55,313 nucleotides of DNA from Coriobacteriia bacterium (GCA_030523425.1 JAUNIP010000007.1:1-55313); one strand, 5' to 3'; shown: positions 41,824 to 48,188, numbered from the stretch's first letter. Notes: generated by a model from the sequence alone, not told the origin. A program made the numbers and translations.

Positions 41824-41949
41824 CACGCGTGTAGCCCAAACCGCAGGCGCACCGCATGGGGCGTTCCCCCCAAGTTATTCACCATTTTTCCACAATTGCT
41901 TGGAACCTTGGGTTTTCTTCAGGTATTAGGAGTATCATTACCCTCGTAT

Positions 41950-42060
41950 GCGATAATGCGCATTTGGAAGAAGACGTCCTGGAAAGGGAAAGCGGGTGGA
42001 AATCCCGCGCGGTGCCGCCACTGTGATCCGGGTTTGCCGGTCAGTCAGAACACCAACCAG
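41950..42060 (+). promoter_or_regulatory. Cobalamin (B12) riboswitch
   Basis: The diagnostic run is present: GGGTGGAAATCCCGCGCGGT (41993-42012), then GCCGCCACTGTGA, a variable arm, and the B12 box AGTCAGAACACC (42043-42054). It sits about 175 bases before the first gene of the transport operon. Possible expression-platform hairpins follow: CACATAA with TTATGTG (42147-42162) and TGTCCT with AGGACA (42181-42206), just before the AAAGGAAAAGGG binding site. It is therefore expected to shut the operon off when adenosylcobalamin or related forms are plentiful. Confidence 0.93.
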
Positions 42061-42233
42061 GAAGCGTGCTGCCGGCCAAGGCGGGTCACCTTGGCAAGCG
42101 CCTGGCGGAAACGCCAGCTGACCGCGTAGCGAAAATGGGCTGCGTGCACATAAGGTTATGTGTAGGCTGCCACTTTTCGCTGTCCTTCTTCTGGTGAAGT
42201 AGGACATGCGGAGAAAAGAAAGGAAAAGGGATA

Positions 42234-44120
42234 ATGAAACAACAAACGCAGCTTATGTCCCAAGGCACTTCGTTGTTACACAAGTTGATCGCCGTGCTGG
42301 TTTCGGTTGCCTTGGCAACCAGCTTCATCAGCTTCGCCAGCGTTCCGGCCGCCTTAGGCGCGCAAGAACCCGAAGCGCCTGAGGTTGCCGCCGAATCGGC
42401 AGCCGCCAACTTGGAAACTGCCAACCTGGCAGAGGCCACCTTGGAAGCCACGCCGGACGTGGTGGAAGCTTCCACGCAGGCGGAAAATGTGGCTGATCCC
42501 ACAACCAACGAAGAGGCCGTTGTCACCACTGAAGAAACCCCCAGCGCTGAATTGCTGGCCGCAGGGGATACCATCGACGTTGCACTTACCATTGTGGACG
42601 CCAGCGGCACCACGGTTTCTGCCGTCTACAACGCCGGTGTGAAAGTGGTCGAACCCGCCACCGTGGCCGGCCTGCTGCAGGCCGCCGGTTTCACCGAGGG
42701 GCCGGAAGCTGACTGCAAGACAGGCTCGAAGGTGTACACCGTAGACGCCACGGACTCCAACAAGCTGATCGGGGTTGCCGGACTGCTGCAGGATCCTTCC
42801 GCCGATACTCCCAAGGTGTGGTCGTATTCCTCTACCGACACTGGCGTGACCGTGACTGACCTTGCTTCCGCGGTGGAAGTTGGCAAGCATTACGTGCTGG
42901 TATACGGTGCCGCGGACTACGCCTTTGCTTACGACACCACCATCAAGGACCCGTTCCAGAAGAACGTTTATGACGCAGAATTTGTTAGCAAGCTAACCGA
43001 AAACCTGGCGAACCGCTTCAAGACCGGCGGCAAGGATGCGAACATCCCCGTTTCCACGGCTGGCAGCGCTAAGACTGCCTCCACCGACTATGCCGCTTAC
43101 GGCCTGTACCACCTGAACTTTGCGGGCGATGTTGACAGCGATGCCATCATCGCCAACTACAAGGCCGCCCGGGCCGCCAACCCCGATGGCATGAGCGCCG
43201 GCCTTATCGCTCGCTACATTTTGGCCCTTACGGCTTCTGATATGGACGCTGCAGAGATTGACGAGGACGGCAACTCGCTGGTTGATCCAGAGAACCATCA
43301 CGACTTGATAGCTGAGATGGAAAAGGCCATGAAGGACGATGAAAGCCTGTATGACTTGGTGTGGATTTTGCCTGTGTACTTGAATTACACAATGGAAGAC
43401 ACAGATGAAAACGAGGCAATGCTAACGAAGCTCATCTCGCAGATGTTGTCTTATTGGAAAGACGCCGCGATTATCGATTCTGGCATGGGCCCTGACTACC
43501 AAACCACTGCCCAGGCGGTGTTGGCCTTGGCGCCCTATTACGACAACACCAACTTCACCGCTGACGGAAAGCTGAAGAACACGCTGGACGCCGCCTGTGC
43601 GGCTTTCGCGGAAGCCGTTAACTATGACGGCGGCATTGCCGGGTTGTTCAGCGAAGGCGCAAGCGACGTTGACGCCACCGCTGCGGTGGTTACCGCGCTG
43701 GTGGCCATGGGCAAAAACCCTGTTGCTTACACCAATGCCGTAACCGGTTCTGACCTGCTGGGTTACCTGGTTGAGCAGGCAGACGCCACGCTGGACGGCT
43801 ACAAGGCCGTTTCGCAGTACGACGAGCCCATGACCGCCGCCACCGTGTTGGAGGCCTTGGGCGTGTATAAGGAAATGCAGGAAAAGGTGGTGAATGGTTC
43901 CTCGTATGCTGAAGCTGCTGTCAACGCGCTTGATTTCGTTCCTGAGGTGAACCCCACCCCCAACAAAAACACCAACACGAACACCGCAAAGAGCACTACG
44001 GCTGCCACGGGCGATGCGAATTTCCCGCTGTTCATGACGTTCGGCATTTTGGCCGTCTGCTCGGCGGTGGCCTTGTTCTTCGCTTTCCGCAGCCGTTCTA
44101 GGGACAAGGTGAACCGATAG
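42234..44120 (+). CDS. Transcobalamin-like surface protein with alpha/alpha-barrel, candidate B12-binding protein
   Basis: 628 residues from ATG 42234, preceded by AAAGGAAAAGGG. Signal peptide (1-about 43, ending ALGAQ), an acidic Ala/Glu/Thr linker, then a beta domain (about 105-225; ATVAGLLQAAGFTEG, LASAVEVGKHYVLVYG) resembling the DUF4430/transcobalamin C-domain fold. A helical domain follows (about 240-580) with repeated barrel-like segments: GMGPDYQTTAQAVLALAPYY, DGGIAGLFSEGASDVDATA, DEPMTAATVLEALGVY. These resemble the alpha6/alpha6 barrel of intrinsic factor and transcobalamin. A Thr-rich stem, a TGD motif, a hydrophobic helix and RSRSRDK anchor it to the envelope. Domain order is reversed relative to the animal carriers. 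It lies directly under a cobalamin riboswitch and ahead of an ECF transporter, so cobalamin capture is the inferred role. Confidence 0.75.
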   Translation: MKQQTQLMSQGTSLLHKLIAVLVSVALATSFISFASVPAALGAQEPEAPEVAAESAAANLETANLAEATLEATPDVVEASTQAENVADPTTNEEAVVTTEETPSAELLAAGDTIDVALTIVDASGTTVSAVYNAGVKVVEPATVAGLLQAAGFTEGPEADCKTGSKVYTVDATDSNKLIGVAGLLQDPSADTPKVWSYSSTDTGVTVTDLASAVEVGKHYVLVYGAADYAFAYDTTIKDPFQKNVYDAEFVSKLTENLANRFKTGGKDANIPVSTAGSAKTASTDYAAYGLYHLNFAGDVDSDAIIANYKAARAANPDGMSAGLIARYILALTASDMDAAEIDEDGNSLVDPENHHDLIAEMEKAMKDDESLYDLVWILPVYLNYTMEDTDENEAMLTKLISQMLSYWKDAAIIDSGMGPDYQTTAQAVLALAPYYDNTNFTADGKLKNTLDAACAAFAEAVNYDGGIAGLFSEGASDVDATAAVVTALVAMGKNPVAYTNAVTGSDLLGYLVEQADATLDGYKAVSQYDEPMTAATVLEALGVYKEMQEKVVNGSSYAEAAVNALDFVPEVNPTPNKNTNTNTAKSTTAATGDANFPLFMTFGILAVCSAVALFFAFRSRSRDKVNR

Positions 44121-44123
44121 CGT

Positions 44124-45059
44124 ATGGTCGAACAACAGGAGCCGGGGCGCATCCCCAAGGACGCGCTCGATGAACGGATAGCTCCTGCTTCAGTTCGAGA
44201 AACCGAAGCGTTAAGCGGGCCCGGTGTTGGCGAAACAGCACCGGGCCCTTCTTCTGTTTCCAGGAAGCAGGGCATAGCTTTAGGCCTTGGCGCCGTGGTG
44301 CTGTGCGCCCTTATTGCGGTGGTGGGCTTTGGCCTTGCCAACCCGCAGGCACAGCCTGAAGCGGTTCTCAACCAAGCGGCGGCGGGTGCGGCCCAGGGGG
44401 CGGGCGAAGATGTCGCTGCGTCCGCGAATGTCGCTGCGTCTTCGGCCGCGGGCGGGACGCCTGTGGCTGCCACCAACGAAGCCGCGAACGCGAACGCTGG
44501 CAACGCCGCTAGCGCTAGTGCGGGTGCGGGCGAAAGCCAGGCAGCTGCTGCGTCTTCGCCGCAAACGACAACGTCCCAGCAGGCCCCGGCGGCCGGTTCC
44601 CAGGAATCTGAATCCGCAGGCGCGGCTTCGGGCGGGCATTCCCAGCTGCCTTCCTCGGGCAGTTCCGGCGGCTCTGGCAGTTCGGGTGGCTCCGGCGGCG
44701 GCGCAACCCCGCAGCCTGAACCCGCACCGTCTGCCACGCAAACCATAACCGTGACGGTATGCGTTGACAGTTCGCGCGCACCGGGCTACCCGGCTTCCCT
44801 GGCAAACGCGCAGGTGGAAGTGCCGCAGGGCGCTTCGGTATATGACGCCTTGCTGGCCACGGGCGTTTCCGTGGGCGGAGGCAGCTCCTACATTTCGTCT
44901 ATCAACGGCTTGGCCGAAAAGCTGAGCGGATACCCCGGCAGCGGCTGGATGTATTCCGTTGACGGCAGCTTTCCCGGCATGTCCTGCGGGCGCTACATGC
45001 TGCAGGGCGGGGAATATGTTTTGTGGGTGTACACCCTGAACATGGGCCAGGACGTGTAG
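44124..45059 (+). CDS. Membrane-tethered DUF4430 (transcobalamin-like C domain) protein
   Basis: 311 residues from ATG 44124, three bases after the previous stop. A short cytoplasmic N-terminus is followed by one membrane helix (QGIALGLGAVVLCALIAVVG, about 48-70), a flexible Ala/Ser/Gly/Gln-rich stalk of about 130 residues, and a C-terminal DUF4430 domain (about 208-311). The domain has ITVTVCVDSS, VPQGASVYDALLATGV and GSGWMYSVDG, the last typical of the family and of the B12-facing domain of transcobalamins. The stalk would place the domain at some distance from the membrane. It is likely to pass cobalamin from the surface protein to the transporter (inference). Confidence 0.75.
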   Translation: MVEQQEPGRIPKDALDERIAPASVRETEALSGPGVGETAPGPSSVSRKQGIALGLGAVVLCALIAVVGFGLANPQAQPEAVLNQAAAGAAQGAGEDVAASANVAASSAAGGTPVAATNEAANANAGNAASASAGAGESQAAAASSPQTTTSQQAPAAGSQESESAGAASGGHSQLPSSGSSGGSGSSGGSGGGATPQPEPAPSATQTITVTVCVDSSRAPGYPASLANAQVEVPQGASVYDALLATGVSVGGGSSYISSINGLAEKLSGYPGSGWMYSVDGSFPGMSCGRYMLQGGEYVLWVYTLNMGQDV

Positions 45060-45066
45060 GTGCGCC

Positions 45067-45954
45067 ATGGATGCAGCCTCTGCGCCCCGCAGCGCACCCG
45101 CCGTTGCCGAAACCACCCTGTTCGAAGGCTTCCATCCAGCCTTCGCTGCGCTGTATTTTGCGGCGGTGCTGGGGCTTACCATGTGCGTGCTGAATCCTGT
45201 GACCGTTTGTATGTCCGCCGTGGTGGGGTTTGTGCTGCACGGCCGCCTGAGCGGCTTTGGCGTTGCGGGGCGGCAGTTGGCGTGGCAGGTGGGTGTGCTG
45301 CTGGTGCTGACCACGCTGCTGAACGCCGTGCTTTCCTCGGCGGGATCTACGGTGCTGTTCCGGCTGGGGCCTTTTTGCATCTCCTTTGAAAGCGTGGCCT
45401 TCGGCGCCTGCATGGGAGGGCTGTTGGTGGCCATGCTGCAGTGGTTCAGCTGCGCGGCAAAGGTGCTTACGTCAAGCAACGTCATGGCGCTGTTGGGCCC
45501 GGTGGCGCCTAACGTGGGGCTGCTGCTTACCATGAGCATGCGGCTGGTGCCGCAGTTTTTGCGCCGCGGCACCCGCATTCATCAGGTGCGCAGCGCCTGC
45601 ACCGCGGCGGGCAACGCGCCCGTGCGGGGGATGGGCGACCGATTCCGCCAGCTGACGGTGCTGATGAGCTGGGGCATGGAAGATTCCCTGGAATCGGCCG
45701 ACGCCGTGCGCGCGCGGGGCTGGGGGGCGGCAAAGCGCCGCACGTCGTATGCGTGCCGACGCTTCCGCATCCTTGACGCTGCGGCCTGCGCGCTGTTGGC
45801 GGCGCTTGTTGCGCTATGCGTGGTGTGCGCGGTTGCGGCATGCGCGCGCTTTTCGTTCTACCCCGTGATAAGCGGCTTTGGCCCGGCGGTGGCTTACCTG
45901 CCCTTTGCGGCGTTGTTGCTGGTCCCGGCGGTGTTGGAGGTGCTGCACCGGTGA
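45067..45954 (+). CDS. ecfT: ECF transporter transmembrane component (EcfT/CbiQ-like)
   Basis: 295 residues from ATG 45067, with TAGGTG upstream. Five or six membrane helices (PAFAALYFAAVLGLTMCVL, VAWQVGVLLVLTTLLN, VGLLLTMSMRLVPQFL) and two coupling-type motifs; SLESADAVRARGWG matches the ADAMRARGYG motif that contacts the ATPases. Its stop codon overlaps the GTG of the next gene (45951-45954). Group II ECF modules share one T unit among S units, but the operon context here suggests a dedicated unit. Confidence 0.88.
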   Translation: MDAASAPRSAPAVAETTLFEGFHPAFAALYFAAVLGLTMCVLNPVTVCMSAVVGFVLHGRLSGFGVAGRQLAWQVGVLLVLTTLLNAVLSSAGSTVLFRLGPFCISFESVAFGACMGGLLVAMLQWFSCAAKVLTSSNVMALLGPVAPNVGLLLTMSMRLVPQFLRRGTRIHQVRSACTAAGNAPVRGMGDRFRQLTVLMSWGMEDSLESADAVRARGWGAAKRRTSYACRRFRILDAAACALLAALVALCVVCAVAACARFSFYPVISGFGPAVAYLPFAALLLVPAVLEVLHR

Positions 45955-47423
45955 GCGTAGCCCTGGAATTCGATAATTTCTCCTTCGCATACCCTGAAGG
46001 TACGCCGGTGCTGCAAGGCGTTTCCTGCAGCGTGCCGGCAGGCGCCTTCGTGGTGTTGGTGGGCGAAACCGGCAGCGGCAAGACCACGCTTTTGCGCTGC
46101 GCCCACCCGGTGTTGGCCCCGGTAGGAACACGCAGCGGCCAGGTGCGGGTGGCGGGCCAGGCGCTGGAAAGCTTGGGCCCGGCTGCCAGTGGTGCGCTGG
46201 TGGGCATGGTGGCGCAAAGCCCCGAAAACCAACTGGTGTGCGATTCGGTGTGGCACCAGATGGCCTTCGGCTTGGAAAACTTAGGGATGGACCCCCAAGA
46301 AATGCGGCGGCGCGTGGCCGAAGTGGCGCACTATTTCGGCATTCAGCCGTGGTTCCACCAAGATGTCAACCAGCTTTCGGGGGGCCAACAGCAGCTGTTG
46401 AACCTGGCCAGCGTGCTGGTGATGCAGCCGCAGGTGTTGCTGTTGGACGAACCCACCGCCCAGCTTGACCCCGTGGCGCAGCGCAACTTCTGCCATGCCC
46501 TGTTCCGCCTGAACCGCGAACTGGGGCTTACCGTGGTGGTTGCCACCCATGCCCCGCAGCTGTTTTCGGCCTACGCCACGCAGGCCTTGCTGCTGCGCGA
46601 AGGCACGGTGGTGCCGTGCAGCATGGCAGCCTTCCGCGAAAGGCCCTTCGACGTGCCCGCTGCCTGGCCTGCGCCCACGGATTTGCGGTCCGCGGTGGTA
46701 ACCCTGCAAGACGTGCACGTGCGCTATGCCCGCGAAGCCCCGCCCATCCTGCGTGGGATGGACCTGCGTGTTCCTGCCGGCAGCATATGTGCGCTGGTAG
46801 GCGGCAACGGCAGCGGCAAAACCACGGTGCTCAACACCGTGGCCGGCGTGCTGAAACCCTTCCGCGGGAAGGTGGCGAACACAGCGCTTCGCACTCAGGC
46901 GCTGCTGCCGCAAGACCCCAAGGCGCTGTTCGTGAAGGACACCGCCTTAGACGAGCTGATGGAGTGGAGCAAGCCCTGCGGCTATGGGCGCGAAGACGCG
47001 CAGCGCTGGTTGGAGCGCCTGGGCCTGCAAGCCTGCGAACACCAGCACCCTTATGACCTTTCGGGCGGCCAACAGCAGCTTTTGGCCTTCGCAAAGCTGG
47101 CGCTGACCAAGCCCGGCCTGCTACTGCTAGACGAACCTGCCAAAGGGCTTGACGCCCACAGCACCTTGGCCTTAGCCCAGCTTATACGTCAGTTCGCCAC
47201 TGAAGGCGGCACAGTGCTGTTCGCCACGCACAATCTTGCCTTCGCCGCCTGCGTGGCGCAGCGCGTGGTGCTGCTGTTTGACGGTCAAGCCGCCTGCGAA
47301 GAAGCGCCTGCGGACTTCTTCCGGCGCAACGTGTTCTACCGCCCCGTGGCCGATGCCTTCACCGAAGCCTTCATGGCCGCCGCTTCGGGCGGTGCAGGCG
47401 CAAGCGAAGCGGCGGAGGCCTAA
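45951..47423 (+). CDS. Fused ECF ABC ATPase (EcfA-EcfA')
   Basis: 490 residues from GTG 45951, overlapping the upstream stop. Two full ABC ATPase domains: Walker A GETGSGKTT, signature LSGGQQQLL, Walker B VLLLDEPTAQLD in the first; Walker A GGNGSGKTT, signature LSGGQQQLL, Walker B LLLLDEPAKGLD in the second (from about residue 250). It powers the transporter in the cytoplasm. Most ECF systems have separate A and A' genes; the fusion here assures a one-to-one pair. All catalytic motifs are intact in both halves. Confidence 0.93.
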   Translation: MSVALEFDNFSFAYPEGTPVLQGVSCSVPAGAFVVLVGETGSGKTTLLRCAHPVLAPVGTRSGQVRVAGQALESLGPAASGALVGMVAQSPENQLVCDSVWHQMAFGLENLGMDPQEMRRRVAEVAHYFGIQPWFHQDVNQLSGGQQQLLNLASVLVMQPQVLLLDEPTAQLDPVAQRNFCHALFRLNRELGLTVVVATHAPQLFSAYATQALLLREGTVVPCSMAAFRERPFDVPAAWPAPTDLRSAVVTLQDVHVRYAREAPPILRGMDLRVPAGSICALVGGNGSGKTTVLNTVAGVLKPFRGKVANTALRTQALLPQDPKALFVKDTALDELMEWSKPCGYGREDAQRWLERLGLQACEHQHPYDLSGGQQQLLAFAKLALTKPGLLLLDEPAKGLDAHSTLALAQLIRQFATEGGTVLFATHNLAFAACVAQRVVLLFDGQAACEEAPADFFRRNVFYRPVADAFTEAFMAAASGGAGASEAAEA

Positions 47424-47426
47424 CGC

Positions 47427-48188
47427 ATGCCCGCCGCCCAGCAAGCTCCCCAACAGGTGGTCCTCACCGGGCAGTCGCGCCTGTGCCGGGCGTTGCGCGC
47501 CTTGGAAGTGCCTGCGCTGGTTGCGGTGCCGGCCGCGCTTATGGCCTGCGCTTACTTCCAGGTCCAGCAGGCTGCCGCTGCCACCATGGCGGTGGTGGCG
47601 CTGTGCTTGGTGGTGTTTTTTGCCGGTTTCGAAGCCAGCCGCCCGGCCTTGCGTCAGATAATGCCTGCGGTGGTGCTAGGCGCGCTGGCTGCGGCGGGGC
47701 GTCTGCTGTTCTTCGCCGTGCCCAGCTTTAAGCCGGTTGCGGCCATCTGCATCATTTCCGGCGTGGTGTTTGGCCGGCGCACGGGCTTTTTGGTGGGCGC
47801 GTTGGCGGCGCTGGTGTCTAACTTCTTTCTCAGCCAAGGGCTGTGGACGCCCTGGCAGATGTATGCCTGGGGCCTTATTGGCTATATGGCAGGTGTGCTG
47901 GCATGCCGCGGGCTGTTTGAGCGCCGGCTGGGCAAGCTGAAGCTTTCGCCGTGGCTGTATGTGTTCGCCGCGCTTTCGGGCTTGCTGTACGGGTGGCTTT
48001 TGAACACGTGGTATGCCATCAGCTTCGTGCAGCCGTTTTCGCCTGCGGCGCTGGTGGCTGCCTATGCCGCCGGCTTGCCGTTCGACGCCGTGCAATCCGG
48101 CGCCACGGTGGTGTTTTTGCTGGTGCTGTACGAACCGTGGAAGGTGAAGCTGGAGCGCATCCGCACAAAGTACGATTTGCGCACATGA
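47427..48188 (+). CDS. ECF transporter substrate-specificity component (S component), probably for cobalamin
   Basis: 253 residues from ATG 47427, three bases after the ATPase stop. Six hydrophobic helices with the S-component pattern: an Ala/Gly-rich helix 1 (LVAVPAALMACAYF), then AICIISGVVFGRRTGFLVGALAALVSNFF and GLWTPWQMYAWGLIGYMAGVLA. This layout is seen in ECF S proteins such as CbrT, PanT and other large-substrate members. The upstream riboswitch and transcobalamin-like proteins make cobalamin or a corrinoid precursor the best substrate guess. It ends the operon at 48188. Confidence 0.85.
   Translation: MPAAQQAPQQVVLTGQSRLCRALRALEVPALVAVPAALMACAYFQVQQAAAATMAVVALCLVVFFAGFEASRPALRQIMPAVVLGALAAAGRLLFFAVPSFKPVAAICIISGVVFGRRTGFLVGALAALVSNFFLSQGLWTPWQMYAWGLIGYMAGVLACRGLFERRLGKLKLSPWLYVFAALSGLLYGWLLNTWYAISFVQPFSPAALVAAYAAGLPFDAVQSGATVVFLLVLYEPWKVKLERIRTKYDLRT

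Follow-up and report, generated by a model that had tools for sequence, protein, structure and literature searches.

Within a 55,313-nucleotide (nt) stretch of DNA from a Coriobacteriia bacterium (GCA_030523425.1, JAUNIP010000007.1:1-55313; the window in what follows), a cobalamin riboswitch is followed by five genes that point in the same direction and are separated by short gaps or, in one case, overlap by 4 nt (Table 1). They encode two predicted surface proteins and the parts of an energy-coupling factor (ECF) transporter. The best explanation of this operon, to which we give a probability of roughly 0.88, is that it serves the capture of a corrinoid at the cell surface and its import by the ECF transporter. 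A first-pass annotation, made from the sequence by itself, had delimited the locus; its gene positions were right, while its start at 41950 omits the first 14 nt of the aptamer.

Table 1. Positions of the operon's features in the window
Feature	Position	Strand	Description or basis
Cobalamin riboswitch aptamer (RF00174)	41936..42108	+	cmscan 31.9 bits, full model 1-189
Post-aptamer leader	42109..42233	+	Long hairpin to ~42181, second hairpin, then purine-rich ribosome-binding region (RNA fold)
Surface protein 1, 628 aa	42234..44120	+	Signal sequence followed by beta domain and alpha/alpha toroid; ends in a degenerate LPXTG-like sorting tail
Beta domain of protein 1, residues 108-234	42555..42935	+	Divergent DUF4430/SLBB relative (hhalign)
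Alpha/alpha toroid of protein 1, ~residues 248-549	42975..43880	+	Terpene cyclase profile matches; structure model
Sorting-signal-like tail of protein 1	44004..44117	+	AATGD, hydrophobic stretch, RSRSR
Surface protein 2, 311 aa	44124..45059	+	N-terminal membrane anchor and Ala/Gly/Ser-rich stalk (both read from sequence), C-terminal DUF4430
DUF4430 (transcobalamin beta-type) domain of protein 2	44730..45056	+	PF14478, E 1.2e-11
EcfT transmembrane coupling protein	45067..45954	+	Family profile matches EcfT 5d3m_D, E 5.9e-12
Fused EcfA-EcfA' ATPase, 490 aa	45951..47423	+	GTG start overlaps EcfT stop; TIGR04520/TIGR04521
CbrT-type S component, 253 aa	47427..48188	+	Profile match 6fnp_A (CbrT)

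The riboswitch and the dedicated ECF transporter

When the whole window was searched with cmscan, the RF00174 match reached the curated threshold over the whole model, though marginally (31.9 bits, where the gathering score is 31.5; E 2.2e-4). The call is supported by its position, 125 nt from the end of the aptamer to the first start codon, and by sister operons in which RF00174 is found at the same place with 59.8 (L087), 55.5 (L045), 53.6 (L120) and 51.9 bits (L039). This is the single cobalamin riboswitch found in the 1.97-Mb genome, and the leader RNA (41930-42250) folds much more stably than shuffled sequences (z -5.5). A cobalamin riboswitch at the head of a tight run of genes, as first annotated, is thus retained.

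The stretch between the aptamer and the first gene is likely the expression platform, judging from its predicted fold. A simple terminator-type platform was rejected because no terminator-like site was found on the plus strand between the aptamer and the start codon. A strong terminator-like hairpin (44217-44248; 13 pairs, 10 of them G-C, followed by TTCTTCTGTT) lies within the coding sequence of surface protein 2, near its start. Because no corrinoid adenosyltransferase (PF01923 or PF02572) was found in the genome and a MetH-like methionine synthase is the sole protein with a B12-binding domain detected there, the switch may sense methylcobalamin or imported adenosylcobalamin.

The last three genes encode together what an ECF transporter with its own module requires: EcfT, two EcfA ATPase domains and an S component. 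From its own sequence EcfT gave no Pfam match; a family profile built from 18 relatives matched the EcfT subunits of solved ECF complexes (Table 1), and the protein carries an A-R-G coupling-type motif (VRARGWG). The fused ATPase has two ABC_tran domains and matches the NCBIfam models TIGR04520 and TIGR04521 at E ~1e-79. Both proteins had been named correctly in the first-pass annotation.

For the S component, a profile of 26 S components searched against the PDB gave only one strong match, CbrT (6fnp_A, E 9.9e-19), followed by HmpT (0.002) and RibU (0.036), and the window protein as a single sequence matched 6fnp_A over residues 76-248 at E 6.7e-9. The S protein is nearer to CbrT than to solved S components of other known specificity, so the earlier call of an S component now points to a CbrT-like protein and not to a well-defined non-corrinoid family. 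Among the ECF S families that it matches in Pfam, the best is PF07155 (riboflavin S component, E 7.5e-11), a label that is misleading because CbrT stands far ahead of RibU in the PDB profile comparison. In Senegalimassilia anaerobia (L011:250-2190, also L115), a single reading frame encodes EcfAA' and the S component as a fusion, and similarly long frames that join the two are present in several Collinsella and related loci (L060, L064, L079, L118, L125, L129, L143).

The two surface proteins

Surface protein 2 carries the only DUF4430 domain detected in the genome. Its PF14478 match lies over the cut-off, and its model, built from 50 sequences with a predicted local distance difference test score (pLDDT) of 97, has the beta-grasp fold of the transcobalamin type, which places the protein in the DUF4430/SLBB transcobalamin clade. 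In a Foldseek search with this model, the first 12 matches were all transcobalamin or haptocorrin structures; these were followed by 3u7z from Ruminococcus gnavus, more transcobalamin and intrinsic factor. Alignment with VIA gave the same picture: the B12 carriers had Z-scores of 12.6-14.0, 3u7z scored 11.9 and the family that came next reached 8.1. The stalked DUF4430 protein of the first-pass annotation, and the kinship that it drew between this domain and one in the animal carriers, are both borne out. One of the matches, 5np4, is the isolated beta domain of human transcobalamin with bound cyanocobalamin; therefore, the DUF4430 domain type is able to hold B12 alone. The entry 3u7z is the solved structure of the uncharacterised RUMGNA_00854, labelled a ‘putative metal binding protein’; given its transcobalamin-type beta fold, like that of protein 2, it may be a candidate B12-binding protein.

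Surface protein 1 is more divergent. Its beta part gave no Pfam match on its own sequence (PF14478 included), and its family was related to the DUF4430 family by hhalign (probability 90.9, E 1.2e-6); sister proteins often have a recognisable DUF4430 domain where protein 1 has its beta part. The helical domain, likewise, has no Pfam or NCBIfam match from the single sequence. Its alpha/alpha toroid was revealed only by family profiles, whose matches include terpene cyclases, and by a structure model made from nine sequences (residues 108-565, mean pLDDT 68, with the helical part good). When the toroid was searched with Foldseek against the whole PDB, the top match was rat transcobalamin with cobalamin (E 1.2e-4), and bovine transcobalamin and intrinsic factor were among the six matches below E 0.001. 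A family profile search also gave one sister protein that matches PF01122 at E 0.0019. The fold is clear from the model, whereas no particular closeness to B12 carriers is evident. The helical domain therefore models as the alpha/alpha fold first suggested for it, and both fold types of the animal B12 carriers are present as claimed, although within protein 1 the order, beta domain and then toroid, is the reverse of that in animal transcobalamin.

The C-terminal tail of protein 1 resembles an LPXTG sorting signal and falls short of one by score, with 14.9 bits for Gram_pos_anchor against a cut-off of 20 and AATGD as its motif. The tails of orthologues are nearer to the consensus (PQTGD, PATGD and similar), and the genome has two sortase genes. 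Sortase anchoring of protein 1 to the wall is likely on these sequence features. The description of an anchored protein with a beta domain thus stands in outline, with a tail that is LPXTG-like but below the cut-off and a beta part that is only a divergent relative of DUF4430.

Occurrence in Coriobacteriia and exchange of the large surface module

In a survey of 199 Coriobacteriia genomes, the S profile matched in 112, DUF4430 in 110 and the cobalamin riboswitch in 105. Both riboswitch and S gene were detected in 41 genomes, and in 30 of these the riboswitch precedes the S gene on the same strand at a distance of 2.7-11 kb, a count that is a lower bound given strict filters and contig breaks. 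The order surface protein(s)-EcfT-EcfAA'-S is found in Gordonibacter, Slackia, Paraeggerthella, Enteroscipio, Senegalimassilia, Olsenella, Thermophilibacter and others, and it is kept in most of the loci examined from Coriobacteriia and some Clostridia; the survey of gene order that had been proposed as a check thus found the order recurring across the class. In many Collinsella loci the ECF block is present but no DUF4430 was detected. L051 is a minimal version in which the riboswitch (near position 1380) is followed by EcfT, EcfAA' and S with no DUF4430 or large surface protein between. In four further loci (L053, L054, L061, L062), the riboswitch lies beside DUF4430 genes and the S gene is elsewhere in the genome; a propeller protein is present in the first three of these.

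The large surface protein is not of one kind. Among 77 operons (repeats removed, more than 3 kb upstream), it contained a toroid in 13, a beta-propeller in 45, both in none and neither in 19. In these counts the operons are related to one another, and very divergent toroids in giant proteins may escape detection. Where a propeller takes the toroid's place, it is in the operon's first gene (L035, L036, L038, L040, L042, L078, L085, L093, L127 and others) and is conserved and, by Pfam and PDB profile, BamB/PQQ-like. That the propeller might be a BtuG homologue was rejected, since the PDB profile gave BamB/PQQ propellers and designed ‘Cake’ proteins and no BtuG among the best 60 of 79 matches. 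On a tree of S components from 58 operons (quick search), the toroid/propeller label changes at least nine times, with four changes forced by well-supported branches, and one surveyed genus (g8) holds a propeller in G054 and toroids in G070 and G138. At even odds, we propose that a constant core of cobalamin riboswitch, stalked DUF4430 protein and CbrT-type ECF importer is combined in Coriobacteriia and some Clostridia with one of two unrelated extracellular modules that have been exchanged repeatedly, and that the toroid and the BamB-like propeller would both capture B12 and pass the corrinoid to the membrane-anchored DUF4430 protein.

Predicted function and relation to known systems

MetH is present in the genome, and the search for corrin synthesis, which covered CbiD of the anaerobic pathway but neither the aerobic pathway nor late salvage genes, found no CbiD; the cell should therefore depend on corrinoid from outside. 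We infer that when cellular cobalamin is low, the riboswitch would permit expression of the operon. Protein 1 would leave the cell and probably be attached to the wall by sortase, and its toroid and divergent DUF4430-like domain would likely hold the corrinoid jointly, as in animal transcobalamin. Protein 2, with a second DUF4430 domain on a stalk near the membrane, would likely take over the corrinoid or offer it to the CbrT-type S component. Driven by the dedicated EcfT/EcfAA' motor, the S component would then move the corrinoid across the membrane. The imported cofactor would then serve MetH. Riboswitch control, surface location and CbrT-type import, as read from the sequence, are well supported. 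Binding of corrinoid by the surface proteins is likely, as predicted from fold and context, and a handover that runs from protein 1 through protein 2 to the S component would be our guess. As a prediction, the Gram-positive surface capture and ECF import first suggested for this locus is supported by the riboswitch, the CbrT-type S component and the transcobalamin-type folds.

Several observations weigh against this interpretation. The score of the window riboswitch is marginal, and the model of protein 1 is poor in its beta part (pLDDT ~45). The genome contains five matches to FecCD-type permeases, which may include a BtuCD-like importer as a further route. The toroid fold is common to cyclases and glycosidases, and by VIA Z-score the toroid is closer to drimenyl diphosphate synthase (21.7) and squalene-hopene cyclase (21.4) than to human intrinsic factor (17.2). 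A cyclase or glycosidase role, which these high values raise, is disfavoured by the extracellular setting and by the lack of the cyclase DxDD motif in window protein 1 and in all nine rows of alignment A3; D.DD strings in two rows of alignment A2 (DMDDAGL, DGDDGKL) lie off the aligned position of the motif. Finally, some compact sister operons (L043, L044, L051) have the riboswitch, EcfT, EcfAA' and S but do without protein 1 or without any DUF4430; a CbrT-type importer thus does not, as a rule, require the surface proteins.

These compact operons favour a reading in which the ECF part alone would carry cobalamin, with the surface proteins binding another ligand or having a part in adhesion or display, and their co-regulation due to chance or history; the occurrence of the toroid fold in many unrelated enzymes points the same way. 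We consider this improbable because the DUF4430 model matches only the beta domains of B12 carriers plus one uncharacterised bacterial homologue, because DUF4430 genes adjoin the EcfT block in dozens of genomes and because both domain types of the animal carriers occur here together. It is also possible, though we think it unlikely, that the operon's main substrate is a corrinoid other than cobalamin, either a different cobamide or an incomplete form such as cobinamide; the surface proteins would then set or broaden that specificity and not serve to catch cobalamin itself. This is a variant of the preferred explanation, and our confidence in the two overlaps. Many corrinoids in the gut are not cobalamin, and the lower-ligand side of the pocket is unreadable from the models. 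CbrT-family and BtuFCD transporters are stated to import both B12 and cobinamide (PMC6593275). Against such a substrate, the genome's MetH needs a complete cobamide and, with no CbiD, salvage of a precursor would require late biosynthesis genes, which were outside the search.

Two readings in which no corrinoid is carried fare worse. Cobalamin riboswitches often control cobalt ECF transporters, so that a cobalamin-controlled cobalt importer of the CbiMNQO type comes to mind. Such control is also described in PMC3766115, and the window ATPase scores on the cbiO model; even so, we regard cobalt import as very improbable, given that no CbiM/CbiN-type match was found in the operon with Pfam or NCBIfam, that the S profile matches CbrT and that a genome with no CbiD has little need of cobalt for corrin synthesis. 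We give almost no credence to a riboflavin or folate transporter as the labels of the S protein would have it: PF07155 is indeed its best Pfam match, but with NCBIfam the S models for riboflavin and folate fall far short of their cut-offs, CbrT is ahead of RibU by 16 orders of magnitude in E-value and the riboswitch is of the cobalamin and not the flavin mononucleotide class.

The first-pass annotation took the arrangement to be undescribed, but this kind of system had been recognised in other Gram-positives by Burroughs et al. 2007 (PMC1796856). The secreted surface proteins in their account, often with Gram-positive anchors, join a transcobalamin-like SLBB domain to an alpha/alpha toroid that may stand before or after it; the operons also hold CbiO/CbiQ genes and another SLBB paralogue, and a role in scavenging B12 was predicted. 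The authors further reported SLBB together with other extracellular domains including the beta-propeller, noted that B12 synthesis is usually missing and proposed that the toroid-SLBB protein was transferred to animals. The window operon is like these systems in its SLBB domain and toroid, second SLBB paralogue, ABC ATPase and CbiQ-like membrane protein. It differs in that their text contains neither the word riboswitch nor an S component, and the hosts of their clade are low-GC Gram-positives, planctomycetes and, less often, euryarchaea, not Coriobacteriia. No experimental follow-up of the 2007 prediction was found in the open literature, a search that did not cover subscription papers and so is no proof of absence. 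New here are the CbrT-type S component in an SLBB operon, the class-wide linkage to the riboswitch, the breadth of occurrence and the exchange of toroid and propeller.

ECF-CbrT for B12 was characterised in 2018 in Lactobacillus delbrueckii (PMC5997447; PDB 6FNP). The window S component is homologous over nearly the whole CbrT chain, and EcfT and EcfA are homologous as well; in the window, however, EcfT and the fused EcfAA' are encoded beside the S gene, with surface proteins first, and none such is part of the 6FNP complex. In Bacteroides, BtuG and BtuH (PMC6143338, PMC8941943) are riboswitch-linked surface B12 catchers that serve a transporter, as is predicted for the window system, and BtuG is a beta-propeller like the alternative module in most sister operons. 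Bacteroides is Gram-negative and uses an outer-membrane transporter, and the window protein has a toroid instead of a propeller. Whereas BtuG and BtuH have been worked out in detail, surface capture of B12 in Firmicutes is little known (PMC8941943). The operon therefore provides a defined candidate for B12 capture at the surface of Gram-positive gut bacteria, in common gut genera and tied to CbrT.

Animal transcobalamin, intrinsic factor and haptocorrin share with the window proteins the folds of the alpha/alpha toroid and the DUF4430 beta domain, at a sequence identity of ~20% or less. In the window the order within protein 1 is reversed, the second beta domain is on a separate protein and the proteins are predicted to be anchored to the cell rather than circulating. 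The presence of the same fold pair in a riboswitch-controlled B12 operon bears on the proposal of a bacterial origin for animal intrinsic factor and transcobalamin (PMC1796856).

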